The translations under genes and the position numbers were made by a program. From positions 1,013,501-1,077,500 of the forward strand of contig NW_002476413.1 in assembly GCF_000189635.1 (NCBI RefSeq): a DNA stretch of 64,000 bases. The letters are read 5' to 3'. Positions 2,756 to 35,400 of this stretch are shown here, one piece after another. Each line of letters begins with the position of its first letter. The first letter of the stretch is position 1. This stretch comes from Tetrahymena thermophila SB210. Lineage: Eukaryota > Ciliophora > Oligohymenophorea > Hymenostomatida > Tetrahymenidae. The notes beneath the pieces were generated by a model, which had not been told where the DNA came from, ran no database searches, and worked only from the letters and a program-made list of their open reading frames with translations.

Positions 2756-4251
2756 TTTATAGCTAAATTTGTTACTTATTAATTAAAATTGAAAACTAAG
2801 TTAAGATCTGATTAATTTCAATAATTTTAATAAAGAGATATTAACTTAATTTTAAATACTTTTGAAGTTGATTAAAAATAATTATTTAAGAAAGGCTTCC
2901 TCTGAAGCATCTCAATTTATTTTTGTATTTAAGAGTTTTAAACTAGATTTAATCAAAAATTAATTAAATGAAAGATCAATTATTTTTATTTATTCTAATT
3001 CATAAGTATAAATTTAATTAAATTTCAAATGATTAATATCTAAAGCAAATTTAAAATTATCATTCAAATTATTTTTTTATAATTAAGTTAAGTTAATAAT
3101 AGCAATCACATTAAATAAATTGTTTAATTTTAAATTTTAGATCTAAATTAAGATAATATTACCAAAGATATAATATAAAAACATTCATTAAATCATATAT
3201 TTATTTCACAAAATTTTCAAGAGGCTAATATCTTTTTTAAATGTAAAGGATAGTATTATTTGTTTAGATGAAAATTTTTAAGGATTTTGGCTTTATTGGC
3301 TAGTATTTTTTCACAAACAATTTAGATCTAAATGAAAAGTGATTCAATAGCTAATAATTAACTTCAAAAAAAGTGAAAATAAATATTTTTGTAAACATAA
3401 TTCAGAAAGAAAAATCATTTTCAATAAATTTTATTTTATTTCTCATCTAAATTTTTACAAATATGTTTAAGCATTTAATTTTTATATTTTAAGAGATAAT
3501 CTTTTTGACAAATTATTTCAAAAATAATTTTTAAGAATGCTAAAGTACAAAGCCGCTATTATATTTACAATTTATTTTATCTGAAAATTCTAAAATTGAA
3601 AATTAGATTTTTCAAGAAGAAAAATATCTTTTAATGTTTAGAAGTTTCATTTATTTATTTGTAATAAAACAATTGAATTATCTTGAGAAAGATTATTATT
3701 AAAGAAATATTATTTATAGGTGATAATTATTATTCTTTAGAAATATTAAATTAAAGAAATTTGAGGACAAAATAGAGTTGTTTGCTTTGAAAGAGGATTA
3801 TTTTTATCATGGTTGGCTATAAATGAATTTTATTAATATTTATTATTAATTAAAATCATCATAAATTTTATTTGGTAAGGTATTGCGCAAATTAATAATT
3901 AGGATTTTGATTGGTTGAAAACTCAGAAAATTATAAATCTATCAAAATGTTTTGAAAAAAGATAATTTATCAATAATAAATAAAGGAAAGATCCAATAAC
4001 ATACGATTATATTTCAAAGATATTCAATATTTTTTGAGTTATTCAATTTATCGTCTGAATGCATTTATTTATTTATTTATTTGTATGAATCAAATTTTAT
4101 CTTATAAACAACTAATTGCTTATCAAGCAGCGTTAGTTAGTAAGTATTCTTTAGAAAATAATTAAAAATCTTCAAAATAATTAATTTAATAAGTTTTTCA
4201 AGACAATTAAAAATCTAAAAAATCAACTAAATATTAGATAGATAAAGCAAA
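2756..4251. other. Divergent intergenic region
   Basis: No gene seen on either strand. It separates two divergent genes and should contain both promoters. It is dominated by A/T runs, with an ATTTATTTATTTATTTATTT tract near 4065. Confidence 0.5.
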
Positions 4252-5553
4252 ATGATATACGATTATAACTCAACTGAAGAGGTTTAGGTTTTAGAAGAAA
4301 AGTTAAAGTCTTATCAATTCCCTTATTGCTCCAAAGGTGGTGATCACACAGCACATTAACTTAATAAAGTATTATTTAGGATTTATTTCAATGAAACTGC
4401 AGTTTCAACAAATTGTCATTTGCAAATAGAACTGCTATAATAAATGGTTTGAAATTTATTATTTACTTCTATTAAAAATAGTTCTGTATTGATACTAAGT
4501 GCAGAAAAGATCAAATTCTTGAACCTCATTGCATTATTTGTGAAGAATACAGAACTCACAACACCCCAACCCACGTTACTAAGCCTTTAAAGTTGGCCAT
4601 CAGAGATTTGATTACTTAAGTATGTGAAACAGAAGAAGACAAAAAAGTGGAAGATGAAATCGAAATTAACCTATTGAAAATTGCTTAAGATTACAAGGTA
4701 ATATAAAAATACAATAGAAATTGTTAAATATTGTTATTGTTTTATTTAGCTTTAAATAAATAAATATTTCTTATTTTTTGAGATTTGATATTCATTGTAT
4801 TTTAGATCAAAATGAATGTAAATGATAATCAGATTCATTAATTTTATGTAAAAAAAGGCTTTAGCAGATAAACTTTATAAGCTTTCAGATGATGCCTATG
4901 CAAGTTTAGACATTTATCGTTTAACTATGAGCAAAGAAAGCCCTAAGAAGAGAGAAGTCAGATAGATTCTTTATGAGCTACTTTCAAATGAATAGGAAAC
5001 CAATTTAAGAACATGCTTGAAAAAGCTTGTTCCTTTGACTATGATAGACAGAGGAACATTGATAGTTACAGATGAAGTAAATATGTCAATAAAAAGAGCT
5101 GTTGAATCTAATAGCGATAAGTATATTTAAATTATGCGTGACTCACTTCGTAGACTTTCTTAGTTAACTGAGAGTCTCTTAGAAATCAGCATCCTTGAAG
5201 GTTATGAAGAAATGAATGGCAATCTCAAAGCAGAAGATATGGACGGTTATGAAACATTCAATAGTACCACATAGAATGGTAATGGTGCTTAATAACAATC
5301 AAACGGAGCTTCTTCTCCTGATAAAAATCAGACTTAAAAGAGAGAAAGAAGAAAAAAAAATCTAGAAGAAAAAAGAGTATTCTTAGAAAAGGAAATAGAA
5401 TAGCATATAGTCAAATGCAATAATAAAAATTGCGAAGAAGTAAAGCCGAACAAAGGAATAGGTTCGTGGAGAATTACAGATTGCTATTATGGTAGAAAAC
5501 TTAATGAGGAATGGTTAAAAGTGTTAAATCATCTTCAATATGAAGCACATTGA
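4252..5553 (+). CDS. Cys/His-rich (zinc-binding-like) unknown protein
   Basis: The start ATG at 4252 follows AAAGCAAA. The best model is exon 4252-4446, a 35-nt intron 4447-4481, exon 4482-4697, a longer intron, and a last exon 4858-5553 ending in TGA. The last acceptor is uncertain: either a single intron to 4857, or a 12-nt micro-exon (4805-4816) followed by a 40-nt intron. The N-terminal half carries spaced Cys/His (YCSKGGDHTAH, then FCIDTKCRKD and PHCIICEEYRTH), suggestive of a zinc finger. The middle is helical (LSQLTESLLEISILEGYEEM). Then follow a basic stretch (KRERRKKNLEEKR) and a second Cys pair, HIVKCNNKNCEEVKPNKG. I do not recognise the family. Coding is well supported by the long TGA-free frame and by the clean phases of the first intron. 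Confidence 0.7.
4447..4481 (+). other. 35-nt intron
   Basis: GT..AG interval that removes an in-frame TGA and joins two coding frames in phase 0. It is very short for this type of genome; an intron of identical length is inferred at 54737-54771. Confidence 0.55.
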
Positions 5554-6590
5554 ATATTTTGTCTTTGTTCTAAATATATATTAATATTTTTAATTAAATC
5601 AATATAAATTAATAAATTTTTAATTACTTCTTCGTTCTTTTTAGTTAAATTTTAATTTTATTAATAATTAATTGCTAAAATTCCATAAAATTTCCACTAA
5701 AATTTCTTATTTAAATTTATTTTCTGTTAAAAATAATAAAATATTTGTTTTAAATTTAGAATAACCAATAATCACGAAAACTAGTTCATTATTAATAAAA
5801 AAGTTTATTGTCAAGCAATATTAAAAATTATTTAAATTATTGTTGATTGCAGATATTTTAAATTACTGAGTTTATCAACCTTAAATTTGATAAATATTAG
5901 AATTGCTATAATAAAAGACATAAATTTGATAAAAAAACAGGGTATTTAATTTAGCTTATTTGAGAAATACTTAAAATCTTAAAGTTTCTGATTTAAAAAA
6001 TATATTTTTGCATTCAATTTATTCCTTAAAAATACCCACCCAAAATTTACTTTGTTTATTTGTTAAAACTTTGATGGATTAAAGTTATTTTACAGAAAAC
6101 GTTTATTTATCAAATATAAATTATTCTATTAATAAAGACTATTTATTACCTTACATTAAAATTGCTATTTTATATTTTTTTATTGAGTGAAATTGATAAA
6201 AAAACAATATTTAGATTATTATTAACAATTATATAGCAATAATTACAGGTCATAAATAACTTCATTTTAATTGTAAGATGTCTATAGCATCACATTTTAT
6301 GTTAACTAAAAAATTAGAAGTACTATACTTAGTCTGTCATTTTTAATCATTAATTAGCTTTGAGTGACAGCATTAAAGAAGATTTAATATTTAAAGTATC
6401 CTACTTAAAATTATTATAGAAATTAAACTAGTAGAAAAGTTAAATAGTAATTACCCATTAATTATCTAAATTGTCTATCCTAAAAATTAAGCCAAAGAGG
6501 ATTGTATTGTTCTAATCTCACTGATTATCTACATAATAAAAAACTTATAAATTAAATTTTATAGTAAGTAGAAAGCATAATTTAGCAAAA
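5554..6590. other. AT-rich spacer
   Basis: Nothing coding is supported. It contains the 5' flank of the TMEM43-like gene and a weak inverted pair CTGTCA/TGACAG around 6330-6370. A 29-codon ATG frame near 6280 is too short to call. Confidence 0.45.
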
Positions 6591-8570
6591 ATGAAAGCTA
6601 TTATTTTTATTTTTTTACTTTTCGTCATAGGAAAATGTCAAGAAAACTCTAAGCCATCTTTAACGCAACAGTAACAACTCTAATAAGAAAATTAGTATGC
6701 TTAAACCAAGCAGAAGTTTTTAAGCATTGAAAAATAAAAGATTTCAGATGAAAATAGTCAAAATAATTTGCAATAATTTAAAAATAATGAATAGCAAATA
6801 ATTAAAACTACAAAGTTAGTTGAAGAGTCAAGCTCAGATAAAGAAAAAGAATAAAGCACAAGTTAAAAAATAGAAAAGGAAATAGAATTTTCATTACTTT
6901 TTATTGCTGGATTGCTTTCAGCAGCATTAGGCATTAGCTTTGAGTGGAAGAATGAAGTATATTACACTAGGTATTTAAAACTCTTAGATATGATTAAAAA
7001 CAGATGCAAAACTTAAGATTTTGCAGAGGGAGATTTAATCTTCCTGAGTGGAAAGATAAATTATAACTATAATCTATCTGATCCATTATTTAATTTGAAT
7101 ATAGAAAAAGCTGTTAAAATAAAACGAAGCATATATATGGTTCAATATGATGAAAAAAATAAGACAGAAGATGAATACGATGAAAATGGCAACTTAAAAA
7201 TAAGAACTATAGCTAAATCCCCTCGAGCTAATAAAAATAATTATGTTAAGAAGTGGATAAGCTACAGAGTTCCAATTCTAAACTTTAAAGATTAAGACAA
7301 GATTTAAAAATCTCAAAAATACTGTAAATTTATTGCTGAGAGTGATACATTCTTAATAAATAAAATTTCCCTCTCTTTGCCTAACAATTCACCAAATTTA
7401 GCTCCTATAAACTAACCAGGAACTCCAAAAGTTGGCAGTTCCATCCTTAATTTTAGCAACGCTACCAATAATTAGAATGAAGGCATGAATAAATCTTAAA
7501 AATTTCGCTCAAGCTTGAAAAGTCTACTTCCAAACTCAAATACTGGTGTTTAGTAAGGTAGTATGACTGCTCCTAATGCAACATCTCAGTAAAAACTATT
7601 TCGCCAAAACTCAAACTAAAGCAATTCACATAATACTGGTAAAATCATGATAACAGATCTTTCTTGCTTTGATGACTTTGCAGTATAACCTTTCAACTAT
7701 AATCTACTAACAAATAATGAAAAGGAGTTAATAACTAACAAAATTGAAGACTTACATCGCTTAAAAGCAGCTTTTGAAGATCAAATATTTGACACCTATG
7801 TGATGTTCAAGGATGACGAAGTAATAATTAGCAGAAAATAAGATTTCAAAATGCATTTAGGTGATAATAAAATGCAGCATGATTTTGTTTATGCAGACGA
7901 AATCAGTATCATAGGTAAGCTAGGAAGCAATAACACACTTATTCCCTATTATACTATAGAAGAAAACAATGAAGATATAGAATTAGATGATATGGATGAT
8001 GAAAATAACTCTCCATTACTCAGAAAAAGACATAAAAAAATACCTTTATTAGACCTAAAATCAAATCTTCTTTCTACGAACAACCATCAAAGTTAAGAGA
8101 GTGGTTTTATGTAAAGCAGCAATGAAAGAATAAGGTATAACAATAATGAATCTACATGCACATACTACTTTTGTTATATTCCACGCTTAATGAAAACAAT
8201 ATTTGCATTTGATGACAAAGTTTACTGGGCAGTTGATCGAGTAGTAAAATTAGATTAATTTTTGCAAATCAAAAAGGAGCAGTTTTCCAAATTAGTCAAA
8301 ATTTGCAGGTATATCTCTTTACTATTTATGTTCTTAGGAGTCTATCTTAGTATTCTACCAATTTTAAATGCATTTGGAATTATAAATGCTGAGAATCTAG
8401 AAAAGAAATCCTCATTTATTACTTAAATTCTTGTTGTTTTAATGTTAACTATTTCAGTCTTTCTATCAACAGCTTTTCCTATATATGCTGCTTATAGGAT
8501 ACATTAAGGTATAATTCTTTTAGTTCTTTCTCTCGGACTACTTTACTTATCTCGTGTAATTTCCAACTGA
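6591..8570 (+). CDS. TMEM43/LUMA-family-like membrane protein
   Basis: Intronless frame of 660 codons (659 residues), ATG at 6591 after GCAAAA, TGA at 8568. Residues 1-19 are a hydrophobic signal peptide ending near GKCQENSK. A Gln-rich linker follows, then a membrane segment at about 100-118 (SLLFIAGLLSAALGISFEW). The C-terminus has three further membrane segments (about 574-595, 610-635, 641-658). Between lie features of TMEM43: an early DFAEGDLIFLSGKI strand, the R-x(3)-M-x-Q-Y block (IKRSIYMVQYDEKN) followed by YVKKWISYRVP, a late KLGSNNTLIPYYT strand, and a basic-residue run into the first C-terminal helix (LVKICRYISLLFMFLGVY). In animals TMEM43 sits in the ER and inner nuclear membrane, with its central region in the lumen. 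The copy here is longer than the ~400-residue animal protein because of a poorly conserved Ser/Asn/Gln-rich insert (about residues 275-350). Assignment is by order of motifs, not by search. Confidence 0.72.
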
Positions 8571-9105: not shown

Positions 9106-12100
9106 TCAATAAGTAAAATTTTATAAAACGACTAATCTGTTTAGCTTAATAAATTTAATGTTATTAGAAATTTAAGGCTAAATCTAAATGGTATTAATGT
9201 TATTTTTATTTTATTTTAATTGAATGTAAATTTGTTATATATATTCTTCACACATGTTATGAACTCTAATAAAAAACAGACTATTTTTTTCTTTTAAGTT
9301 AAAATAATCTTCTTAGGATATAAGTTCATTTAAAGTGCTTTCACATTAAACAAATTGAATTCCTAAGTAATTCAGATTTTTAAATCTTCTGATTAGTTAA
9401 TAGTAAGCTTTGTTAGAAAATGTACTTAAACATCTAGAATCATCAATAAAGTTTAGTTCTTTTTAGATGGTGTATTTATAGTACTATATATATGTAAACT
9501 AAAATAAAGCAGCTTAATCTAAGTTACAATTAAAATTGTAATTATCACATTTTTAGCAATAAATATTTTATTTCATATTCAAGGTATCCATGGTATACAC
9601 TTTTTATATCTCAGTGAATATTTCATCTAATAAAATTTAATCAATTTAGGCTTGGTTATTAATACAATTCAAATATTAGCCAATTTATTTTTTAATTATT
9701 TTTTTTAATATTTATATTTCTTGCTCATTTAAAATATAAGAAAATAAATTTCTACCATCTGAATTTAGATTAATAGACTTTGCTAAATTGTCTTAATTCT
9801 AGTTTTAAAATAATGAAATTTGCAAAATTGATTGCGTGCTAAATATAGCCTAATTATTTTACTGACACTTATTATTAGTTTAATTTTAAATATTTAACCC
9901 ATTAAAATAGCTTTCCTAATTTTATGTATCATTTTGATTGGTTGTTGTGCTTAACAATTGCTAAGAAGGATTATTAAACAAGGATTAATTTTATTAACTA
10001 CTAAAAATTCCATCAGTTAATGACTTGATAGAGCCTTGATTATCACTATTTGGATTACTTTGATTATTGAATATATTTTCATTGTTAACAGAAATACTAA
10101 AAGTTTCTTTATTTAAAGTCTGGATAGAAATTTTATTATCATCGTTTTAATTGCTAAAAACACTACTAGTATTTTAATTGGCTATAGAGCTAAACAGTGA
10201 CTAAGGAGGATTATTAAATAAAGATTAATTTTATTAACCAATAAAAATTCCATCATTTAATGGAGTGATAGAACTTTATTTATCTCCATTTTAATTGCTA
10301 AAAACACTTTAAGTATTTTAATTTGTCATCGAGCTAAATAGTGACTAAGAAGGATTATTAAATGAGGATAAATTTTATTAGCTACTAAAAATTTCATCAT
10401 TTAATAGCTTGATAGAATTTTGGTTTTCTCCATTTTAATTACTGAATATGATTTTATTTTAATTAGTAATAAAGTTAGATAATAGTTAAGAAGGTTTTTT
10501 TTCATTCTATGTTTTGAAAAGTTAAATGTAGTTAATAGGATAATTTGGAAATTTTTTTAAAATAGAATCATCAACAAACTTATCCTCTATATATATTTCT
10601 CTCTTTTAATCATATGACTTTTAATTTCTAAATATGATGCTTTCTTTTAGTCTACATCCAGATTTTAAGTCTAAAAATTTGATATCAAGTGAAGATTTTT
10701 TTAAAATATCGATGAGCTTAAGAAACTATTCTATTTTAATTTCATCAATTTATAGAGCTTAGCAACTCTATAAAAACATTGGTTTAAAACTAAACCCAAT
10801 TTCTTTTTCAAATTGGCTATTGAGATTTTTCAGTTGGTCAAAGAATAAATTGAATTTATTGATTTTTTATTCACTAATAAGCCAATCACCTTTTTCTAAT
10901 GAAAAGAAGTAGTCTAAAACATTTTTTGATATATAATCCTAATTTTTTTAATCAAAATTTAGAGAGCTTTTTCTTATAAACTCAATAGCTTGATGAATAA
11001 AATAATCATATTATGTAGTAAAATTATTTTTCTCATTTTTTATACTACTTCTGTTGCTGCTTGGAAATTCCCTAAAATAGTAGCAGCTATCAATTTTGAG
11101 TTTTTTTTATTAAGAATCATACTTGTAATTACAATTTATTTTAAGCTTAGCTAAAATAATAAAATTATTTATCATATCTTAAATTTCATCTACTTAAGTG
11201 AATTCGCATTAATTTAGCTCACCACAGAGATTTGAATTATTTACCTTTGATAAAATGTAAATACCTTGACTATTTGAAATAATTTCACTATTAATAATTG
11301 GATTAATAATTATCTTTGATTCATTACAAATTGAAATAGCTTCTTATATTTATTCATATATTTATCTTGCTTCTTCTTCCTCATCAAACTTATGACATAC
11401 AAAATTAAAACTATATTTTTTAAGTTTATTTTACTAGCAATAAGCAAAGAAATTATCCTCAAAATATAACTCAAAATAATCTTCAACTGCATTTAATTTA
11501 TCCAATATATGAGATTTTATTATTTCGAAATTAGACATAACTGCTTTCTATTTACTTTTTTCAATAAAATTCATCATTAAATTTGAATCTTAATTGAACT
11601 GTTATTTAGCATTTGAATATTTTTTGTTTGTGGGATTTATATTTATTTTTTATTTATTATTTCTACGCATGGACATATTACTGAATAAAATAGGATTTAC
11701 TGCATTTAATTTGACTTAAAATTATGAGTTTTCTTATTGTATAAATGCAAATTGTATTTGAAACTAGATTTTAGCTAATTAAAAATTATAATCTTCATCT
11801 TCATTTTCACATTAATAATATGACATAAATTATCTGATTAAGTTAACTGAATCAAATACAATTTATTAGTTAGTTTAGGAACTAGAATTTTAAAGATAGA
11901 AGTCTTCGTATTCTATGACATAAAATATCTTGTCTTCATCTAAGTAATAAGAATCAAAAACTTTCAGAATAAATGCTGGCCTGAATAAGCGTGAGCAAAT
12001 ATCAGCATATTTTTTTAAATGACCAACGAGCTCTTCAACATAGTCAGTTAAAAAAATTTCTAAGCATTTTTTTATGTTTTGTTTTTTGTCATAAACTTTA

Positions 12101-12291
12101 ATTTAGAGAAGTTCAACTTTTTCATCAGGCAGTTCACTGTTAATTTAGAGTTATCGAATTGAAAACACTTATTCCGTTTAGATTTTAAGATGACCTTTTT
12201 TCTCTTATAAATAATCTAATAATAATTTGATATCAGATTTGTGAAAATCTATAGATGTATCTCTAATTTTTTATTCAAATTGTTGTCTCAT
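9106..12291 (-). CDS. Asn/Gln-repeat protein, tandem paralog 1 (1061 aa)
   Basis: Single frame of 1062 codons, TGA at the complement of 9106-9108, start MRQQFEQKIRDTSIDFHKSD. The three neighbours at 9106, 13081 and 17514 share three regions. First is a ~600-residue N-terminal part with alternating helices and strands, including FILKVFDSYYLDEDKIFYVI, which faintly recalls a kinase N-lobe but shows no catalytic motifs. Second is a low-complexity repeat region starting near residue 597. Third is a ~300-residue C-terminal part with a conserved YCxKC pair followed by LDQAALFQFTYI. Here the repeat region has about four ~47-residue units of the type SLFNNPSQ / VFSNQNGDN / SSI..LNDGIFSSQQNQ. No signal peptide or membrane segment is seen. 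The family is not recognised. The intact frames of all three copies argue that they are functional. Confidence 0.85.
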
Positions 12292-12412
12292 TTGTGTTTT
12301 TTTATGCTTACTTTCTTTCCCTTATTTAATCTTTATTAATTTTTTGATTATTTAATGTTAATTTATAGAGACAGCTAATATCTTTTTTTATATAAGATTT
12401 ATCAGCATTACG

Positions 12413-12420
12413 GCGGGAAA
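12413..12420 (-). promoter_or_regulatory. E2F-like site upstream of paralog 1
   Basis: GCGGGAAA (TTTCCCGC on the other strand) fits the E2F consensus TTTSSCGC. It lies 122 nt upstream of the ATG. TATCAATATT begins exactly 36 nt further upstream of the GGG, a spacing repeated at paralogs 2 and 3. The functional role is inferred. Confidence 0.35.
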
Positions 12421-12597
12421 TTATCTTTTAAATTAATTTGCCAATATAAATATCAATATTACGATTGAAAATAATTTTAGACAACAAATAAAAATATGAT
12501 AAATTTAATAATCAAGATTAGTGGGAAATTAGTTTATCGGTTAATCTACCCAAATAAAAATCAGATTGAAAATAGTTTGATTCAACTAATAAATAAA

Positions 12598-12675
12598 AAT
12601 GTTTAGCACTTCCAGGTATTAAATTCATATGGATGTGGAAAAGTAAGAATTTAAATCCTGGATTTGCTAAACATT
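12598..12675. repeat. 78-nt near-perfect inverted repeat (hairpin)
   Basis: The two 29-nt arms match at 25 positions and enclose a 20-nt loop. The outer 11 bp are perfect (AATGTTTAGCA paired with TGCTAAACATT), then CCAGG/CCTGG and TTAAATTC/GAATTTAA. It is more GC-containing than its surroundings. It lacks tRNA arms and box A/B motifs. It could be a structured ncRNA, a small palindromic element or a 5' UTR structure of paralog 1, about 310 nt upstream of that start codon. Confidence 0.7.
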
Positions 12676-13080
12676 AGATTAATTAATTAAATAATTTTAT
12701 TTTACATTTAATTAAATAATATTTATTTTATGATATTATAAATATGTAATTTCAGACAAAAATTTTTTAATTTTAATTATTTTAAGAAAATATTATTATT
12801 TTTTTATAAATTTCTTTTTTTTATTATTTGCAAAAAATAATTTTTTATTGTTATTTTCTGTATTATCTATAACAAAAGCATACTAATTTAATTAAATTTA
12901 TTGTAATATATATTTTTTTTTGCCCTCTTTCCTAACATAATAAAAGAATAAAAAAATTAAAAGGTTTGATAACAGTATGCATGTGTTACTTAACAATTAA
13001 TAGTTACGATCAAATTAATAAAAATTAAAAAAAAAAAAAATTTAGTTTATTAGTTAGTTAACTATTTATATAATTATGAA

Positions 13081-16000
13081 TCAATAAGTAAAATTTTATA
13101 AAACTACTAATCTTTTTAGCTTTAAAAATTTAATGCGGTTAATAACTTTAGGTTAAATCTAAATAGTATTAATGTTATTTTTATTTTATTTTAATTGAAT
13201 GTAAATTTATTTTATATATTCTTCACACATGTTATGAACTTTAATAAACCATAGACTCTTTTTCTCTTCTAAGTTAAAATAATCTTTTTATTATTTAATT
13301 TCATTTAAAGTGTTTTCACATTAAATAAATTGAATTCCTAAATAATTCAGATTTTTAAATCTTCTCATTAGTTAATAGTAAGCTTTGTTAGAAAAGGTAC
13401 TTAAACATTTAGAGTCATCAGTAAAATTTAATTCTTTTTAGATGATGTGTTTATAGTACTATATATATGTAAACTAAAATAAAGCTGCTTAATCTAGTTC
13501 ATGATGAAACTAGTAATTTTCACATTTTTAGCAATAAATAGTATTAAAAAATTTCAAATTCAAAGTATCCATATTATACACTTTTTATATCTCAGTGAAT
13601 ATTTCATTGACTAAAATTTAGTCAATTTGGGTTTGGTTATTAATAAAATTTAAATATTATCCAATTTATTCTTTCATTATTTATTCTAATTCGTATATTT
13701 CTTAGTCATTTAGAATATTAGTAAAATTTAAATTTTGAACATGTGAGTTTAGAGTAAACTTTGCTGAATTGTCTTAATTCTAGTTTTAAAATAATGAAAT
13801 TGGCTAGATTGGTTACTTGCTAAATATAACCTAATTCATTTACTGTGACTAATTAGTAGTTTAATTTTAAGTATTTAATCCATTAAAAAGGCTTACCTAA
13901 TTTTATTTATTAAATAACATATCATTTTGATTGGTTTTGGGGCAAAACAATCTCTAAGAAGGATTATTAAACAAGGATTCATTTTGTTAACAATTAAAAA
14001 CTTCATCATTTAATGGCTTGATGGAATTTTGGTTATTACCATTTTGATTACTGAATATACTGCTATTTTGATTGGTAACAGAGCTAAATAAAGGTTAATC
14101 AGGATTTTTGTTATTAAAAGATGATAAATTTTTTTAGTCACTAAAAACTCCTTGATTTGAAGGCTGGATGGTACTTTTATTATCCCCATTTTAATTGCTA
14201 AAGACGCTATTAGTATTTTAATTTGTAACAGAGCTAAATAGTGACTTAGAAGGATTACTAAATAAAGATTAATTCTATTAACCACTAAAAATTCCATCAT
14301 TTGATTACTTGATGAAACTCTGGTTATTTCCATTTTGATTACTGAATATACTGCTATTTTGGTTGGTAACAGAGCTAAATAAAGGTTAATCAGAATTTTT
14401 GTTATTGATAAACAATGGTACATTTTTTTAATCACTAAAAATGTTTTGATTAAAAGGCTTGATGGAGCTTTTATTATCTTCATTTTAATTGTTAAAAACA
14501 CTTTTCGTATTTTAATTAATCATGGAGCTAAACATTGGCTAAGAAGGATTATTAAATAAAGATTAATTTTATTAACCACTAAAAATTCCTTGATTTAAAG
14601 GTTTTATCAAACTTTGATTATCTCCACTTTGATTACTAAACTTTCTATTATTTTAAATAGTTATGGAGTTAGATAATTGTTAAGGAGATTTTTTTTCATT
14701 CTATGTTTTGATTAGTTAAATGTAGTTAATAGGATAATTTGGAAAATTATTTAAAATAGAATCATCAACAAACTTATCCTCTACAAGTATCTTTGTTGGT
14801 TTTTTCCCAGGCTTTTGATTTCTAAATATAACGCTTTCTTTTAGTCTACAACCAGATTTTAAGTCGAATAATTTGAGATCAAATGAAGATTATTTTAAAA
14901 TATCAATGAGCTTCATAAACTATTCTATTTTAATTTCATCTATTTATAGAGCTTATCCACCCTATAAAAACATTGGCTTAAAACTAATGCCATTTTCTTT
15001 TTCAAATTAGCTATTGAGGCTTTTTAGTTGGTCAAAGAATAAATTAATTTTATTAATTTTTTATTCACTAGCGAGCTAATCACCTTTTTCTAATGAATAG
15101 AAGTAGTCTAGAAGCTTTTTGTAAATAGAATCCTAAATTTTTATATCAAAAGTTACAGAGTTCTGTCTTATAACCACAGCAGCTTGATTAATAAAATTGT
15201 CAAATTGTGTCATAAAATTATTATTATCATTTTTTATACTACTTCTGTTGATTGGAAATTCCCTAAAATAGAAGCAGCTATCAATTATGAGTTTTTTTTA
15301 TTAAAAATCATATTAGATTTAACAGTTTATTTTAAGCTTAGCTAAAAGAATAAAATTATTTAATATATCTTAAATTTCATTTATTTAAGCAAATTTGTAT
15401 TAATTTAGTTCTATATACTGGTTCAAACTGTCTAATTTTGATAAAATGTAAATACCTTGACTATTTGAAATAATTTAGCTATAAATAACTGGAGTAATTA
15501 TGGCCTTTGATTCGTTACACATTGAAATAGCTTCTTATATTTTTTGGTATATTTGTCTTGCTTCATCTTCCTTATCAAACCTATGGCATACAATATTAAA
15601 ACCACATTTTTTAAGTTAATTTTATTAGTAATAAGCAAAGAAGTTTTCCTCAAAATAAAATTCAAAATAATCCTCAACTACGTTTAAATTATCCAATACA
15701 TGAGATTTGATTATTTCTAAATTAGACATAACTGCTTTCTATTAACTTTTTTCTATAAAACTCATCATTAGATTTTAATCTTAATTGAAGAGTTAAATTT
15801 ATTATAAAAAACTAAAATCTATTTTATATTAAGAATTTATATTTATTTTTTATTTATCAATTCTACGCAGGCACATTTTACTGAGTAAAATAGGATTTAC
15901 TGCATTTAATTTGATTTAAAATTTTTAGTTTTCTTACTTTTGATATGCAAATTATATTTCAAACTAGATTTTAGCTAGTTAAAAATTATAATCTTCAACT

Positions 16001-16491
16001 TAAGAAGTACATTAATTATATGAGATAAATTATCTGATTAATTTAACTGCAGCACATACAATTTATTAGCTATTGTAACAAATAGTACTTTGAAAATCGA
16101 AGTCTTCGTATTCTATGATATAAAAAATTTTGTCTTCATCTAAGTAATAAGAATCAAAAACTTTCAGAATAAATGCAGGTCTAAATAAGCGAGAGCATAT
16201 ATCAGCATATTTTTTTAAGTGGCAAACGAGCTCTTCAACTTAATCAGTTAAAAAAATTTCTAAGCACTTTTTTATATTTTGAATTTTATCATAAACTTTA
16301 ATTTAGAGAAGTTCAACTTTTTCATCAAGTAGTTTATTGTTGATTTAGAGTTATCTAATTGAAAACTCTTATTCAGTTTAGATTTCAAGATGAGCTTTTT
16401 TCTATTACAAGCAATCTAACAATAATTTTATATCAGACTTGTGAAAATCTATAGATGTATCTCTAATTTTTTTTTCAAATTGTTATCTCAT
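13081..16491 (-). CDS. Asn/Gln-repeat protein, tandem paralog 2 (1136 aa)
   Basis: Single frame of 1137 codons. I checked every codon of the frame and found no internal TGA; the stop is the complement of 13081-13083. The N-terminus (MRQQFEKKIRDTSIDFHKSD) is nearly identical to paralog 1, and homology is continuous through the C-terminal YCQKCENY / LDQAALFQ block. The repeat region (about residues 597-835) has about five ~48-residue units, alternating two subtypes: one ending at a position corresponding to GIFSG, the other at QGIFS. The encoded repeats are rich in Asn, Gln, Ser and Phe (SLFNN, SVFSNQN). Some codon-level divergence from paralog 1 is at third positions, consistent with purifying selection on the N-terminal region, but this was not quantified. 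The function is unknown. Confidence 0.85.
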
Positions 16492-16619
16492 TTTATTATT
16501 CATTCTTTTATTTACTTAACTTTTATTAATTTTTTGATTATTTAATATTAACATTTAAAATAATCTTTTGTCCGTGTGAGAACAAATAAAAATCATATCA
16601 ATCTGATAAGTCTGTTTGA

Positions 16620-16627
16620 GAGGGAAA
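16620..16627 (-). promoter_or_regulatory. Diverged E2F-like site upstream of paralog 2
   Basis: GAGGGAAA occupies the position of the GCGGGAAA seen at paralogs 1 and 3, about 129 nt upstream of the ATG. TATCAATATT again begins 36 nt from the GGG. One base departs from the E2F consensus. Confidence 0.25.
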
Positions 16628-16950
16628 TTATTATTTTTATTAATTTATGTAAATAAATATCAATATTATCATTAAAAATAGTGTGTAAAAATTATATAAA
16701 TCTGATTTGTCAATATTATGGAGTAATAAAAATAAATAATGTATTTTCCTTTAATTTTTCTATTAATAAAAAAATAAAAAGGAAGTATGGCTTTGTTTTT
16801 GATAAAAATTATAAAATAATTTTAGATGAGTGAGTGAAATATTATTTTCAAATATATCAATGATATGGAAATTTGATATATAATAAACAGATAATAATTT
16901 TAATTATTTTAGATTCAAATTTTATTTTATTTTTGGTATTATATAGTTAA

Positions 16951-17243
16951 TTTTATAAAATTAATTTATGATTAGTTAAATATGCTCTTGAATGGTATCA
17001 ATGATATCGATATTTGATTTTTATAGAGATCGATTTTATAAAATTAATTTATGATGAGTTAAATATGCTATTGAATGATATCAATGGTATGGATATTAGA
17101 GAAAAAAAGAGATAAATTTTATAAAACTAATTTAATGTTAAATATTCTATTGAATGATACCAATGATATAAATATTTGATGTATATAAAGATCAACTTTA
17201 TAAAATACCTATGAAAAGGTCAAATATCTTATTTAATGAATGG
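16951..17243. repeat. ~83-bp tandem repeat, about 3.5 copies
   Basis: Units start at 16951, 17034, 17117 and about 17196. Each begins TTTTATAAAA and contains a TTGAATGATATCAATGATAT core. A weaker related copy of the core precedes them near 16850. Non-coding, unique to the paralog 2/3 spacer. Confidence 0.65.
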
Positions 17244-17513
17244 ATGTGCTAGTTTACACTTTCCTTTATTCAGTAAATAAATTTTAAAGAGAAGAAAATT
17301 AATTAAAAGTTAAAATTAATAAAAATAAAATCTTTTAAAAAATAAATAAAAATATTATATAAAGTTTTTTTGTAAATTTTCAACTATAAAAATAAAATTA
17401 AAAGAATATTTAAAAAGTAAGGAGTCATAAATTAGTTATAATCAAGCTAATACGAAAAATAAAATTAAAAAAAATAAATTTAATTTATAAATTTAGTTTT
17501 ATATAATTAAAAA

Positions 17514-20500
17514 TCAATAAGTAAAATTTTATTAAACAACTAATCTTTTTAGCTTTAAAAATTGATTACGATTAAAAATTTATGGGGTAATCTAAATCGT
17601 ATTAATACTATTTTTATTTTTTTATAGTTAAATGTAAATAAGATTTAGATATTCTGGAGGCATGTTATGAACTCTAATAAAAAATAGACTCTTTTTCTCT
17701 TTTAAGTTAAAATAATCTTCTTACGATTTAAGTTCTTTTAAAGTGCTTTCACATTAAATAAATTGAATTCCTAAATAATTCAGATTTTTAAATCTTCTGA
17801 TTAGTTAATTGTAAGCTTTATTAGTAAATATATCTAAACATCTAGAGTCATCAGTAAAATTCAACTCTTTTTAGATGACATGTTTATAGTACTATATATG
17901 TGTAAACTAAAATAAAGCTGCTTAATCTAGTTCAAAATTAAACTTGTAACATTTTGAGCAATAAATAGTGTTAAATAATTTCAAATTCAAAGATTCCATG
18001 GAAAACACTTTTTATATCTCAGTGAATATTTCATTTACTAAATTTTAGTCAATTTGGGTTTAGTTATTATTAATAAAATTCAAATATTAACCAATTTATT
18101 CTTTGATTGTTTAGTTTAATAATTATATTTCTTGGTCATTTAGAATATTAGTAAAATTTATATTTTTATCATGTAAGTTTAGATTAACAGAATTTACTGA
18201 GTTGCCTTAGCTCTAGTTTTGTTAAACACTAAAAATTCCATCATTTAAAGGTTTGATAGAACTTTAGTTAATTCCATTTTGATTACTTAATATACTACTA
18301 TTTTTATTGGTAAAAGAGTTAAATAAAGGTAAATCTTGATTTATGTTATTCAACAATGGTAATTTTTTTAAATCACTAAAAATTCCTTGATTTAAAGGCT
18401 GGATTGAACTTTTATTATCCAAATTTTAATTGCTAAAAACGCTATTAGTATTTTAATTAGCTATGAAGCTAAATATTGGCTAAGAAGGATAATTAAATAA
18501 TGACTAATTTTTTTAACCACTAAAAATTCCATCATTTAATTACTTGATTGTACTTTTGTTTTCTCCATTTTGATTACTGAATATACTGCTATTTTGATTG
18601 GAAACAGAGCTAAATAAAGATTAATCAGGATTTTTGTTATTGATAAACAATGGTAAATTTTTTTAATCACTAAAAATTCCTTGATTTACAGGCAGGATGG
18701 AACTTTTATTATCCCTATTTTAATTGCTAAAAACGTTATTAGTATTTTAATTTGTAACGGAGCTAAATAGTGACTGAAACGGATTATTAAATAAGGATTA
18801 ATTTTATTAACCACTAAAAATGCCATTATTTAATTACTTGATTGTACTTTTGTTTTCTCCATTTTGATTACTGAATATACTGCTATTTTGACTGGTAACA
18901 GAACTAAATAAAGATTAATCAGGATTTTTGTTATTGAACAATGGTAAATTTTTTTAATCACTAAAAATTCCTTGATTTAAAGTCTGGATAGAACTTTTAT
19001 TATCTCCATTTTAATTGCTAAAAGCACTTTTAGTATTTTAATTATTCATGATAAAAAGTGTCTAAGATGGATTATTAAATAAGGATTCATTTTATTTACC
19101 ACTAAATATTCCATCATTTGATTACTTGATTGTACTTTTGTTTTCTCCATTTTAATTACTGAATATACTGCTATTTTGATTGGTAACAGAGCTTAATAAA
19201 GATTAATCAGGATTTTTGTTATTGAACAATGGTAAATCTTTTAAATTACTAAAGATTCCTTGATTTAAAGGCCGGATAGAACTTTTATTATCTCCATTTT
19301 AATTGCTAAAAACACTTTTAGTATTTTAATTAGTCATGGAGCTAAATAGTGGCTAAGAAGGATTATTAAATAAAGATTAATTTTATTAACCACTAAACAT
19401 TCCTTGATTTAAAGGCTTGATGAAGCTTTGATTATCTCCATTTTCATTACTAAATGTGCTATTATTTTAAATATTTATGGAGTTAGATAATAGTTAGCAA
19501 TACTTATTTTCATTCTATGTTTTGATTAGTTAAATGTAGTTAATAGGATAATTTGGAAAATTCTTTAAAATAGAATCATCAACAAACATATCCTCTATAA
19601 GTATCTTTGTTGGTTTTTTCAGAGGCTTTTAATTTCTAAATATAAAGCTTTCCATTAGTCTACAGCAAGATTTTAAGTCAAATAATTTGATATCAAATGA
19701 AGATTATTTTAAAACATCAATGAGCTTCATAAACTATTCTATTTTAATTTCATCTATTTATAGAGCTTATCCACTCTATAAAAACATTGGCTTAAAACTA
19801 ATTCCATTTTCTTTTTTAAATTAGCAATTAAGGCTTTTTAATTGGTCAAAGAATAAATTAATTTTATTAATTTTTTATTCACTAGCAAGCCAATCACCTT
19901 TTTCTAATGAATAGAAGTAGTCTAGAAGCTTTTTTTAAATAGAATCCTAAATTTTTATATCAAAAGTAACAACGTTTTGCCGAATAACATCAGCAGCTTG
20001 ATTAATTAAATTTCCATATTGTGAAGTAAAATTATTTTTATCCTTTTTTATACTACTTCTGTTGATTGGAAATTCCCTAAAATAGAAACAGCTATCGATT
20101 GTTAATTTTTTTTATTAAAAATCATAGTAGATTTAACAGTTTATTTTAAGCTTAGCTAAAAGAATAAAATTATTTAATATATCTTAAATTTCATCTATTT
20201 AAGCAAAGTTGCAATTATTTAGCTTTCTGTACTGGTTCAAATTGTTTAATTTTGATAAAATGTAAAAACCTTGACTATTTGAAATAATTTAGCTATTTAT
20301 AACTGGAGTAATTAATGTCTTTGATTAGTTACATATTGAAATAGCTTCTTATACTTTTTGGTATATTTGTCTTGCTTCATCTTCCTTATCAAACTTATGG
20401 CATACAATATTAAAACCACATTTTTTAAGTTTATTTTATTAGAAATAAGCAAAAAAATTATCCTCAAAATAAAATTCAAAATAATCCTCAACTACGTTTA

Positions 20501-21290
20501 AATTATCGAAAACATGAGATTTAATTATTTCTAAATTAGACATAACTGCTTTCTATTAACTTTTTTCTATTAAACTCATCATTAAATTTTAATCTTAATT
20601 GAAGAGTTAAATTTATTATTTTAAACTATATTCTAATTTATATTAAGGATTTTTATTTATTTTTTATTTATCATTTCTACGCATGCTCACTTTATTGAAT
20701 AAAATAGGATTTACTACATTTAATTTGGTTTAAAATTACTAGTTTTCTTACTTTTAATATACAATTTAGATTTAAGCTAATTAAAAATTATAATCTCCAA
20801 CTTAAGAAATACATTAATTATATGAGATAAATTATTTGATGAATTTAACTGCATCACATAATATTGATAAGTTAGACCAGCAAAAATCGCTAAAATCGAA
20901 GTCTTCATATTCTATGACATAAAATATTTTGTCTTCATCTAAGTAATAAGAATCAAACACTTTAAGAATAAAATTCGGACTAAATAAGCGTGAGAATATA
21001 TCAGCATATTTTTTTAATTGGTCAACAAGCTCTTCAACATAATCAGTTAAAAAAATTTCTAAGCATTTTTTTATGTTTTGTATTTTGTCATAAACTTTAA
21101 TTTATAGAAGTTCTACTATTTCATTAGGCAGCTCATTGTTAATTTAGAGTTATCTAATTGAAAACTCTTTTTCAGTTTAGATTTCAAGATGAGCTTTTTT
21201 CTATTACAAAAAATCTAACAATAATTTTATATCAGACTTGCGAAAATCTATTGATGTTTCTCTAATCTTTTTTTCTAATTGTTATCTCAT
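17514..21290 (-). CDS. Asn/Gln-repeat protein, tandem paralog 3 (1258 aa)
   Basis: Single frame of 1259 codons, each checked, TGA at the complement of 17514-17516. It begins MRQQLEKKIRDTSIDF and carries the same N- and C-terminal regions as paralogs 1 and 2, with YCSKCYKF and LDQAALFQ near the C-terminus. The repeat region (about residues 597-1022) is the longest, with about nine ~49-residue units in strict alternation of two subtypes, giving a super-period near 293 bp. It lacks part of the Asn-rich linker that paralogs 1 and 2 have between the repeats and the C-terminal domain. The repeats start at nearly the same residue (597) in all three proteins, so only array length has changed. The function is unknown. 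No membrane segment or signal peptide. Confidence 0.85.
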
Positions 21291-23966
21291 TATGTTATTC
21301 TTTCTTTTATTTACTTAATTTTTATTAACTTTTTGATTATTTAATTCTAATTTTTAAAATAATATTTTGTCTGTGAGAACAAATAAAAATCATATCAATC
21401 TGATAAGTTTGTTAGAGCGGGAAATTATTTTGTCTTTTTATTTTTATAAATAAATATCAATATTACCATTAAAAATAGTGCGAGAGAACAAATAAAAATT
21501 ATATAAATCTGGTTAGTAAATTTTTTTTTGGGGAATATTAGTTTATAAAGATATTAATTTACCTAAATAAAAATTCTGCTTATTGTAAAATCATCTTCTT
21601 AACTTTATTTATTTATTTCTGAATTTTATATTCATTTATATAAACTTTTATTAGCTTGTTGATAGCTTAATTCAAATTTATTCTTAAATCCCTCACATTT
21701 TTTACAATCCCAGTAATTTTATGTATAATGAATAATAAATTAATAAATAAATAATGTGTTAAAAATACTCAGGGATTTTTCTTTTAATAAAAAAATAAAA
21801 GGGAGCTTGACTTTTTTTTTGATTGATCAAAATGAAAAATTAAGAGGTATAATAATTAATAGAATTTACAAAGAATAAATAATTTTATCATTCCTCCCCT
21901 TTACTTACATAGTTAAGGTATCATCATAATATTCAAGTAAATTACACTCTAAATACATTAAAATTATTTTAATTTAAAATAAATACTTTATAAAATACAA
22001 AAAAACCTTCATTCATTATATAATACTCTTATCTTAAATTAAATTTATATAAAAATAATTTTAAGTATATTACTTGTTATGTCTAAGTGTATAAATATAA
22101 ATAATTTATTAAATTTTTCTGATATCATATTTGAAACCAGCAATTAAACTTATTGAAAAAAATGCTTCTCAATTATAAAAAAACTATTTTTTAATCATTA
22201 CTTTCGCCATTTATTTTCTTAGATAAAAGCAATAAATAAATTTTTAACAATAATTAAATAAATAAATAAATATTTTTATTAATTTAACTTGAAAGTTAAT
22301 ACAAAAGTGAATTTTATTAATTTTGTTAATTAACTTTAAATACTATTTTTTGTACTCATTTAATCATATAAAATTAATAATTTAAAATTTAAGAAGAAAA
22401 TATTTATGGGATTTATTAGCATTTATTTTCAATTAAAATATTTATGTTAGTTCTTAGCTTTTGTTTTATATAAATTTTAACTCTTTTATTTATTAATTGT
22501 TTCTAAAAAAAGTATCAACTTTGATTTTCAAATAGAATAGAAATTTAAAAAAATAATTGATTATCAAACACTAAAAAATATAGCCAAAAATAATATCTAC
22601 TTATTTTGAATATTTATTAAGCTTATTTATATTTTCATGCTTTTATATTCCTTTTATTTCTCACAAAAAAGTATAGTTTAAAAGCATTTTTTTACTTTTC
22701 TTCAGTCTGTTTATTTTGAAAATAAAAATACAAAATTAAATAAAAAAACTAATTATAAAAATTTTATTAAGAAAAAAATTCCTTATTGTTAATTAAAATT
22801 TGAATTAAGTGTAAATTAATCAATAAAAATGAAAAATATCAAGTTATCAATAACTTTTACATTTCAAATAAATATTCTTTTATATTATTTTTTAAATTTG
22901 TAATATAAATCCATATAATTATATTGATTCTAAAAATTATATTTAAAATTATAGTTAACCTCGAGAATTGCGAACAAAACAAAATTTTTGCTTTGAAAAA
23001 AACAATTTTCAGTAAATTGTGAAAAACAAATAATAGATAGCACGTAGATTATCGCAGTTTAAAATGTTCGCAGACTATAAAATAAATCCACAATTACATA
23101 TTAAATTGGAATAATATGTCAATTAATCATAAAAATCTTAATTGTAAATATTATTTGAGTAGATTTATTCAAATTTTATATGAACTATTACTAAATAGTA
23201 ATAATTTATTTAGTTAAATCTAAAAATATTAAAATTTATTGATAAATAAATATGAGTAAGCTGTAAATAAGAATAAGATAGAATTTTAAATGATCTTTCT
23301 TTAATCAATAAATAATTAAATTTACTTTACAAAACACATTGATTGTATTTATTTTTCAATTATTTTCAAAAGTAAGTAATATTTAGTATTCATTTTATAG
23401 AAATTTACAACTCTCTTAATTACCAGATTTAGTAAATAAATTTAATAGAACATTCTTTTTCTAAATAGAAAGTTTAATATCTAATAGCTTATCTTCCCTA
23501 TTATTCACTCATAATTGATCATTTTATTTTACATTAAGTAAATATCTCATTCAATATATATTTTTTTTAATTTGTAAAAATCTAATATTTCTTTGAATTT
23601 TACCATAGTTTATTAGTATTAAACAGTTTAAGTCATGAGCCTTCTTACAATTAGATCTTATTTTTACAACAAATAAAGAATGCTCAAGAGTTTTCTGATG
23701 AAACTTAATATTTTACAAAATTAGTGAAAGATTTTTCACAATACCTCTCTCATAATTCTATTAAATAATGTTAGATAAATTAAATTTGTATATCCACAAT
23801 GTTTGTATGAAAAAGTGTTGGAGGTAATTAATTAATCAATTTAATTATTAATATTAGTAAACAAATAAATATTACTAAAAACTCTTTAAAAAGTTTTTCA
23901 AATCTAGCTCTCTCAAGTTAAGCTCTATTTTAATAAATCAAGACATAAAAGTTAAGTAAATTTAAA
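21291..23966. other. Long divergent intergenic region
   Basis: 2.7 kb between paralog 3 (-) and the copper transporter (+). It includes the paralog 3 upstream element near 21417 and, at 21482-21515, a second copy of the GAGAACAAATAAAAATNATAT block. The rest is A/T-rich with no supported frame. A short patch at 22965-23075 has higher GC (GAATTGCGAACAAAAC and later GTTCGCAGACTATAA) but forms no recognised RNA gene. Confidence 0.5.
21417..21424 (-). promoter_or_regulatory. E2F-like site upstream of paralog 3
   Basis: GCGGGAAA, about 127 nt upstream of the ATG, with TATCAATATT starting 36 nt from the GGG, as at paralogs 1 and 2. Conservation could reflect recent duplication rather than function. 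Confidence 0.35.
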
Positions 23967-32400: not shown

Positions 32401-35400
32401 CAAAGCTATATGAATAATTTAATGAAGGTAAGTCAGAAGACTTAGAAATTAAATAAAAAATTTTTAAGCATTTAGAAGGCCATAAAGTTCTCCTTAAGTT
32501 TTTAGAATAAGGTACCAGTGTGCTCTAAACTAACTCTCATTACTTTACAGTTTAGAATTAAGAAATACAAAAATACTCATACAAAAAGGTGTTCATGTAC
32601 AGCGTTATTAATGGTAATTTGTTTTGATAATCTTCTTAAATCAAATAATTTTTATTAAATATAAAAAGTATTTAAAACCTGTCACAAAATTTTGTCAATA
32701 TTTTGTTTTAAAAATCAAAAAATTCAAAAAACACTGTTCAAACATTATCACAAGCTTTTATTTAATCAATCATATTTGAATATTGGTCAGATGGAGTTTA
32801 TTTGTGAAATTTTTAGAGGTAATAGAGATCTCTCTTTAGCAAATAACACCAAATATATCGATTATACTATAAATCTAATTAAAATACATGGTATGCAGCC
32901 AGAGTTTCTAGAATTATTTTGGATTCTTATGTAAAACTAAACTTCTGACAGTTATGAAATCCAAAAGAGAATAATTTAAACTTTGCTAGACTCAAAAGTT
33001 GTTAATATTGTTAATGTAAAATTCCTTTTAAAAAAAGCTATTCTAAGATTTATTTTTTCTTTAACAAGCCTTTTAAAGCAGATAATTTAATTGAACAAAA
33101 AAGAGCAACTATGCAATACTTAGAATTAATGCAATCTAAATAAAAAATTGAAGAATCTAAGCCTTAATCTATGCTTGATATGAATGAAAATATTTTAGAT
33201 ATAAGAAAGACCTAAAAGCTACTGATTGTAGGATTTGATTAAACGAAAAATATCGAATTAAAAACTTAAACAGAAGAAGCTAATGAAGCTAATGAGGAAC
33301 AACTCATATTAGAAACAGAAAACAGTGAAGTCTAATAAGATTTAAAGAATAACTTTGACATAAATTTAACAATAAAATTCTATGAGCAATGTTAAACATA
33401 AAATCCAGATGTATTAGAAAAGAGATTAAGAGAATATAAATTAAAACTTATTCAGATCATCTCAATAGGATTTACAACTTCCGAAATCGGTGTAAATTTT
33501 ATTTATAGATCTTTCTTGCATATAAGAGTTCCTAGTTTGTTCTAACTACTGCTTGAGGAAATGAAAATTAAGCAAAATAAGAACATAAATGATAAAAATG
33601 CAAATAAATAACAAGTGTATAGCAGGAAATAATACATAACTGATCTTCTTTTGACTTATTTCTATAAGCTAGATTAAAGCATTGCATAATTTTAATAGAG
33701 TTCTTAAGTAAACAAAAATTTGACACTTACATATCAATTAACTTATTTAAAAAATATAAATAGATCTTCATATAGTGTGTTGAGATCGAAATTTAAAATA
33801 TAAGGAATAAATACAATTATTCTTAAGAAGAAAAATAATTTATGATAGATAATTTTTTACCTCTAATCAATGAGTACAATGACAATTTCCTTAAAGATTC
33901 AGTGTAGCATATTTTAACTTATTTAAATTTCTATTAATTAAATTTAAATTTTATAGGCTTCTTGCTATTTAGTAAAAGGAGAATAGTATTGAGTCTCATA
34001 ACTAAAAAGTCATATATAGCTTTGCTTAAAATTTTCTTCATGAAATTTACAGATTTGTTGACTTTTCTTAGTATAAAAAATTGGATAATAGAACTACTTA
34101 AAAGCTTAAAAATATAGCTATCTTATCAAACAATTTTAGAATTAATTTCAATCCCCCAGAAATTCTACAAGTAAACTTTTATAGCTTATTAATACGAATA
34201 TAATTTTTATCAAACATTTAATTTTAGCAACTGATTAATATTATGGCTGTAGAAAATCAAGAGGTAGGAGGGTAGTACAAAGATCACACTTGCTTAAATA
34301 AATATAACTAACCAACTAGAAAGCATAATAGTATGATTTCATAATAATTTTTTGCTAGTTATTAAAACAAAATCTTATCAATAAAAAATAGGCGAACTTT
34401 TCCATAAGTTTAAAAATTGTGTGAATGCGATCATGTTCTTGAAAAAAGCAGAACATGAAGCTATTCAAAATGGCAATAAAGCTGTGCATTTTGATTAGCT
34501 TAAAAAATTAGAAAGGGAGTCAAGATATTTGAAACTTTGGAACACTTTCAAAAATCTTTTAAAAGATACAAAGTAAATGATTTATTATTTTATTTATATC
34601 CTAACTCAATTAATAAAAATTATTTACCATTAATCAAAATTAATCAACAAGATCAATAAAAGAAATGGTAAAAGAAGAGCAAAGATTATTTAAAGATTCA
34701 ATTATGAACTTTGAAAATTTCATTGACAATAAAAAAGATGCTATTGAAGATCTGCTTATTTCAAAAGAGGATATTATTAAAAAATTACTAAATTTCATTA
34801 ACTTTTGGAAAGAAATGGGTTCATCAAAAGGTAGTGTGATATTTATCATCAAGACTCTTAGGCATATTATTGAGAGAAGTGACACACCCAATTCAAAAGA
34901 ACCATAATTATAAAATATAGAAGATGATAATGCAGCTAAAGAAAAAAGATAAAATGTTATGGATGCCTTGAACACTTCTATAGTATGTTCTAGTCTCCTT
35001 ACTCGAGAGAGCTAAAAAGATAAAGTATACTTATATTATTTATTTAGACTACTAATTAGTTTATTAGACGGAGGTAAGTTATTTTTATAATTATGAAAAT
35101 TATAAATTAATTAATATTAATAACAGGAAATAAGTAGGTACAAAATACTCTCTATGAATTTTTTATTAGTAATTCTTAGAGTGAATATTTGTTCCAAAGG
35201 ATTAATAATATAATTGAAGATGAGATTAAAATCATTAAAAAGCTTGAAGGAAAAAAGACTTCATTTGGTTTAGTAAATTAATTTTTATTCTTCTAACTTT
35301 CATTTTATAAATATTTTTTAAAAAAAGGACTAAGCATCAAGCAAACATCTTATTGAAAATGTCCTTTAATTGATATAATTGCTTTGTGAAGGACATAATA

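Follow-up and report, generated by a model that had tools for sequence, protein, structure and literature searches.

Three tandem Tetrahymena thermophila paralogs with phenylalanine-motif repeat arrays that may act as cohesive linkers between conserved ends

Three adjacent minus-strand genes (A, B and C) of Tetrahymena thermophila encode proteins in which conserved N- and C-terminal regions enclose a linker with an Asn/Gln-rich repeat array. They lie in a 64-kb window, which is the whole stretch of DNA analysed and from whose first base positions are counted. The genome is taken as the macronuclear one of T. thermophila, given that the telomerase RNA of this species aligns to it with 100% identity across 159 of 159 bases. 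Judged by their sequences, the genes are a recent tandem expansion within a larger T. thermophila protein family. This family is apparently undescribed: no publication on it was found at the level of titles and abstract openings, which does not prove absence. The explanation that we consider best, with a probability of roughly 0.38, is that the proteins are kinase-like scaffolds with a multivalent, FG-like cohesive linker of adjustable length. The conserved N-terminal half would look like a heavily degraded protein kinase, with N-lobe, insertion and catalytic-loop region, and serve as a catalytically dead binding platform, followed by the linker and a conserved C-terminal module. In the A/B/C cluster, the linker would have been filled with units of ~144 bp, partly amplified as ~291-bp pairs by unequal recombination, which bring evenly spaced aliphatic-phenylalanine motifs in N/Q/S spacers. 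The linker, presumably disordered, would act like FG repeats as a multivalent, weakly cohesive domain and gather copies of its own protein or partners with FG-binding pockets, and the number of units (13, 22 and 35 F in A, B and C) would set the strength of cohesion.

In the ciliate code (code 6), the minus strand has open frames at 9106-12609, 13081-16596 and 17514-21290 without an internal stop, at the positions where the initial annotation had placed three adjacent TGA-free frames of more than 3 kb. Random sequence of the same base composition, with the length counted from the conserved start, would be free of TGA with a chance of 1e-8 for A, 3e-9 for B and 3e-10 for C. This start, MRQQ(F/L)E, is common to all three; A has it at 12291 and B at 16491. 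Upstream of this motif the open frames of A and B do not resemble each other by eye, and genes A and B were therefore taken to begin there. The genes and their modules are:

9106-12291, minus strand: gene A, 1061 aa in the ciliate code, stop TGA at 9106-9108, MRQQ start as in B and C
13081-16491, minus strand: gene B, 1136 aa, open frame
17514-21290, minus strand: gene C, 1258 aa, open frame
11683-12291, minus strand: N-terminal module of gene A (kinase N-lobe-like)
15883-16491, minus strand: N-terminal module of gene B (kinase N-lobe-like)
20697-21290, minus strand: N-terminal module of gene C (kinase N-lobe-like)
10618-11682, minus strand: middle module of gene A (EEA...NSQGIYILSK segment, common to the family)
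14812-15882, minus strand: middle module of gene B
19626-20696, minus strand: middle module of gene C
9109-9732, minus strand: C-terminal module of gene A (end ...KLNRLVVLQNFTY)
13084-13713, minus strand: C-terminal module of gene B (end ...KLKRLVVLQNFTY)
17517-18143, minus strand: C-terminal module of gene C (end ...KLKRLVVQQNFTY)

No membrane span is apparent in the three proteins, the highest 19-residue Kyte-Doolittle mean being 0.83-0.96. Downstream of gene A, on the opposite strand, adjoins a gene for a TMEM43 domain protein (6591-8570, plus strand).

Tandem duplication had been proposed for the cluster, together with common N- and C-terminal regions and array length as the chief difference. 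Both proposals are borne out across A, B and C, the former by the common flanks and by common DNA on the 5' and 3' sides of the genes. Outside the array, nucleotide identity among the three is 80-95% per block of 100 aligned codons, and similarity extends beyond the coding sequence:

16496-16717, minus strand: 5' flank of B, which aligns with that of C (21295-21524) over 232 bases at 84% identity
8889-9106, minus strand: 3' flank of A, which aligns with that of C (17295-17508) over 222 bases at 82% identity

The 5' flanks of A and C are 67% identical over 280 bases. Among the A/B/C pairs, the N-terminal protein flank has a dS of 0.18-0.35 and a dN/dS of 0.41-0.44, and the C-terminal flank a dS of 0.22-0.29 and a dN/dS of 0.46-0.55; the bootstrap 95% ranges of dN/dS are 0.31-0.63 and 0.26-0.99, respectively, the range for B and C in the C-flank nearly reaching 1. 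These ratios below 1 reflect purifying selection and support the coding status of the genes. Between B and C, dS is only 0.13 in the middle but 0.28 over the N-terminal 200 residues, which hints at gene conversion. The spacers between the genes contain repeats of their own, namely an 83-bp tandem repeat of 3.2 copies between B and C (16949-17206) and an imperfect inverted self-match of ~136 bp between A and B (12292-13080).

Relatives of A, B and C occur at at least 34 distinct places in the T. thermophila genome (rows merged by hand). Queries for the genome search were B, L024 and L033, at E up to 0.01, and the L032 C-terminus, at E up to 1; the more distant places are linked to the family through L033 only. 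Several places occur as pairs or triplets. Thirteen paralogs could each be read through in one open frame that has both the N- and the C-terminal module, with a masked stretch in L035; C70/L034 was dropped from the paralog set as it needs a frame change. In this copy (L034:3552-6586, plus strand), the N-terminal part lies in a different frame from the rest, pointing to an intron or a broken copy. The paralog at L029:1572-4994 (minus strand) has a different repeat insert (SDSDEEDLLQKPNF...) in its middle module.

The initial annotation recognized no family for the three genes; no named family has emerged for the flanks, but the group extends well beyond the cluster. A strong match of the flanks to a well-studied family, which would have spoken against novelty, did not appear in Pfam, NCBIfam or PDB. 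The flanks of A, B and C and the scanned paralogs gave no Pfam match over the cut-off, only scattered matches below it at E up to 10, and four proteins gave no match in NCBIfam. PDB sequences returned no match for B, and profiles of the N- and C-terminal regions matched none of the PDB chains at E up to 10. One match over the cut-off, to DUF3952 in gene C (residues 802-852, E 8e-6, 26.4 bits, cut-off 25), is situated within the array and is absent from A and B; it was therefore taken as a low-complexity match.

Profile comparison lends weak support to a kinase ancestry of the N-terminal half. An N-terminal profile of 12 members scored 30.9 in hhalign against a profile of 80 bacterial kinases, a score reached by none of 200 column shuffles (highest 19.7; reversed 12.1), with the alignment in register over VAIK, helix C and beta4-beta5 and an hhalign probability of 20%. 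The profile of the next part, built from nine paralogs, scored 26.8 against the same kinases (0/200 shuffles; highest 15.6; reversed 13.2) and aligned over helix E, the catalytic loop and DFG with a probability of 8%. In this in-register match the family resembles protein kinases and pseudokinases, including the ciliate-specific expansions described in the available part of PMC3341644. Unlike kinases, however, it does not have the full set of key residues VAIK Lys, HRD Asp and DFG Asp: Glu stands opposite the VAIK Lys (Ile or Val in the distant members L032, L033 and L035), a gap stands opposite HRD in the profile alignment, the Pfam and PDB searches returned no kinase, and a large segment separates the two kinase-like halves. 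The remainder of each half carries no kinase signal, its score being reached by 39/100 and 5/100 shuffles, and a complete kinase fold is therefore not demonstrated. For the same reason, two complete tandem kinase domains, as first read by eye, were rejected. In their place we prefer a single kinase-like region that has decayed and is interrupted by an insertion, or else only partial remnants. The middle module of A, B and C aligns with its counterpart in the paralogs at a score of 41.0 and a probability of 73% (maximum over 60 shuffles 18.4), whereas the catalytic-loop region of A, B and C was matched to the paralogs by eye only and was not aligned by the profiles. We call the N-terminal half kinase-like and probably catalytically dead. 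Structure prediction, which had been suggested as a check, could be run but gave no usable model: AlphaFold2 with three-sequence (A/B/C) alignments reached a mean pLDDT of 32 and 40 in two models.

The family could also belong to those sets of young and quickly evolving Tetrahymena genes (LRR, kinase and NTPase genes) for which a role in sensing bacteria or food has been proposed, with the array being incidental. Species-specific T. thermophila genes form tandem copies with a median Ka/Ks of 0.25-0.30, and about 0.4 for LRR genes, and young genes have low expression in axenic culture (PMC6564038, in the part available). The tandem clusters and the dN/dS near 0.4 of the present genes agree with this picture, and the A/B/C cluster may therefore be silent in rich medium. 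With the 90-bp-exon LRR genes of the same source, A, B and C share the tandem arrangement, rapid turnover of units, a dN/dS of about 0.4 and, by eye, a similar C-terminal end motif. This motif (K-aliphatic-KR-aliphatic-V) is over-represented in the genome, with 534 occurrences vs 221 for the reversed pattern, which is suggestive only, and to the eye the C-terminal module resembles LRRs. In contrast to those genes, which have phase 2 introns, A, B and C are single open frames without 90-bp exons and with ~144-bp non-LRR units, and the family is not of the 90-bp-exon LRR class. Pfam scans of 10 members yielded no LRR above the cut-off, the nearest being LRR_8 at E 0.78 in L032, and the C-terminal query from L032 returned family places only and no new place. 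A link between the C-terminal module and LRR genes was rejected on the lack of a Pfam LRR over the cut-off and on a genome search with LRR_6, which found two places, neither of them in the family. We regard membership of such a sensing gene set as unlikely.

The three linkers start at residue ~592-597, in agreement with the array start near residue 597 and the 4, 5 and 9 units reported initially, while the units proper begin at residues 615 (A), 617 (B) and 612 (C). Tandem Repeats Finder detected periods of 144 and/or 291-294 at 10123-10440/10481, 13954-14637/14640 and 18217-19016/19455, and unit boundaries were placed by hand, giving 18 units in total:

9937-10449, minus strand: array of A, 4 units, residues 615-785 (Tandem Repeats Finder and hand-placed boundaries)
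13927-14643, minus strand: array of B, 5 units, residues 617-855 (Tandem Repeats Finder and hand-placed boundaries)
18207-19457, minus strand: array of C, 9 units, residues 612-1028 (Tandem Repeats Finder and hand-placed boundaries)

In A, one of the four units is 29 aa long and another has a 3-residue insertion; the five units of B are followed by a degenerate tail, and the last of the nine units of C is 29 aa long. Beyond the initial annotation, two unit types (~48 and 49-50 aa) alternate in B and C and form a higher-order repeat of ~97 aa. DNA identity among the B and C units is mostly 81-93% within a type and mostly 63-75% between types; the units of A are nearer the first type, and the truncated A3 is nearer the second. 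B1 and C1, the opening units of their arrays, form a pair (91%), which indicates that part of the array predates the split of B and C, and the unit similarities indicate that later unit pairs were added mostly in C.

The array had been thought to undergo relaxed or diversifying change. This is not supported, as pooled dN/dS is 0.32 among the units of the first type (10 units) and 0.61 among those of the second (6 units), and 0.41-0.55 in the flanks. The F and N columns rank with the most conserved ones. Across 16 units, the two 29-aa units being omitted, the four F columns have a mean identity of 95% vs 75% for the other columns (p 0.009, 20,000 random draws of four columns), and F codons vary synonymously at two of the four. 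Nine N columns (88-100% identical) and one I column (100%) in the same 16 units are as conserved as the F columns, so that the F motif is not singled out.

The Asn/Gln richness noted earlier holds, the arrays having 32-35% N+Q vs 20-22% in the flanks, but the label prion-like is too loose; the nearer parallel is with phenylalanine motifs of the FG/FX type set in N/Q/S spacers. An amyloid-forming Q/N domain of prion-like character would be consistent with the composition (33-35% N+Q by count) and less so with the regular F motifs, the 9-12% charge and the conserved positions, none of which composition-driven prion domains need; we consider it highly improbable. The motif [ILVM]F[SNQ] holds 53/70 of the array F vs 20/205 of the flank F (10/13 in A, 16/22 in B and 27/35 in C), and the narrower [GSP][ILVM]F[SN] accounts for 47 of the 70. 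Its forms are GIFS, SLFN, PLFS and SVFS. One F occurs per 13.2 (A), 10.9 (B) and 11.9 (C) residues. The three arrays together contain no FG dipeptide and a single Tyr, and charged residues (D+E+K+R) make up 9.4, 11.3 and 11.5%, so that the charge depletion typical of FG/FX nucleoporins is not seen, whereas the repeated aliphatic-F motif at about one per 12 residues is common to both.

Repeats of the Nup98 type that carry one motif every 12 residues keep their selective phase when GLFG is changed to GLFS, their saturation concentration drops as the repeat number rises, and moderate negative charge abolishes phase separation (available part of PMC9918544). The arrays resemble such FG domains and the FX/NIFN nucleoporins of Tetrahymena in that aliphatic-F motifs recur at intervals of about 12 residues, separated by N/Q/S-rich spacers (PMC5450191 and PMC9918544, both in part), and their GIFS and SLFS are close to GLFS and SLFG, which are functional in Nup98-type repeats (PMC9918544, same part). 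They differ from Nup98-type FG domains in lacking FG, in length (171-417 vs 500-700 residues) and in being 9-12% charged. The proteins might themselves be nucleoporins of the FX type, comparable to those of the Tetrahymena micronucleus (NIFN and FN/FQ/FS repeats), with the array residing in the nuclear pore. The use of NIFN and FX repeats (X mostly N, Q or S) by Tetrahymena Nups (PMC5450191, in part) fits this, as do the array motifs, one per 11-13 residues. The flanks of A, B and C, however, contain no nucleoporin domain and match no nucleoporin family in Pfam or NCBIfam, 12 of the 16 members examined from this family of at least 34 places are without such repeats, nucleoporins are not expected in such numbers, and the available portion of PMC5450191 names no such protein. 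A place in the pore is thus quite improbable. As the arrays match Nup98-type repeats in density and motif and are shorter and more charged, a weakly cohesive, length-tuned linker is our best guess.

Close behind this cohesive-linker reading comes an ordinary low-complexity spacer that keeps two folded ends apart, its internal similarity stemming from recent amplification and weak constraint. Tetrahymena proteins are N/Q-rich, with 18-25% N+Q in whole family members regardless of an array, and slippage and unequal crossing over lengthen short repeats. Array length varies freely among A, B and C, and the array as a genome query matches this cluster only (three first-look candidates were scored). 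An N/Q-rich, F-motif-rich linker is present in four of the 16 proteins examined, namely A, B, C and L033, and its absence from the other 12 likewise suits a spacer. Such a spacer is harder to reconcile with the unit dN/dS values, with the conserved F columns and their synonymous codon variation, and with the array of the distant paralog L033. For the cohesive linker speak the probably independent L033 array and the density and enrichment of the motif; against it stand the charge, the restriction to four members and the equally conserved N columns.

L033 (C17 paralog; 3839-6838, plus strand) carries an F/Q-rich repeat array of its own, likewise in the linker, with 16 of 23 F in a motif class that also admits P before F. 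Its tandem neighbour matches both sides of the array with only 72 bp between them and is therefore without the array. In the tree, L033 and L032 are set apart from the other 13 rows on long branches (support 96/95). As L032 has no F/Q array and the tree separates L033 from A, B and C, a separate origin of the L033 array is likely. A short run of four such F motifs in L027 was seen by eye and was not flagged by the motif script. We hold it doubtful that a dead-kinase-like ciliate family acquired FG-like cohesive linkers away from the nuclear pore on two or more occasions, in A/B/C and in L033, with copy number as an evolvable condensation rheostat. If the linker works as proposed, FG-like repeats would have arisen again outside the pore, the cell could tune the strength of clumping, and the paralogs with their different F counts on a near-identical scaffold would offer a ready in vivo test of cohesion, and Tetrahymena, an easily transformed laboratory ciliate, would suit a test of repeat number. 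If the array is a spacer only, the cluster would belong to an unremarkable young family whose repeat changes quickly.

Elsewhere in the window, all on the plus strand, 35154-36098 encodes part of a ryanodine/IP3-receptor-like channel, recognized by its RIH_assoc domain (PF08454, E 4e-34), and 56816-60327 holds pieces of an ABC transporter with a weak ABCA1-like end. Four open frames at 43770-51755 match penicillin amidase (PF01804, E 3e-22 to 2e-35) and also have PDB matches; they apparently make up at least two penicillin-acylase-like genes that lie in tandem and are split by introns.
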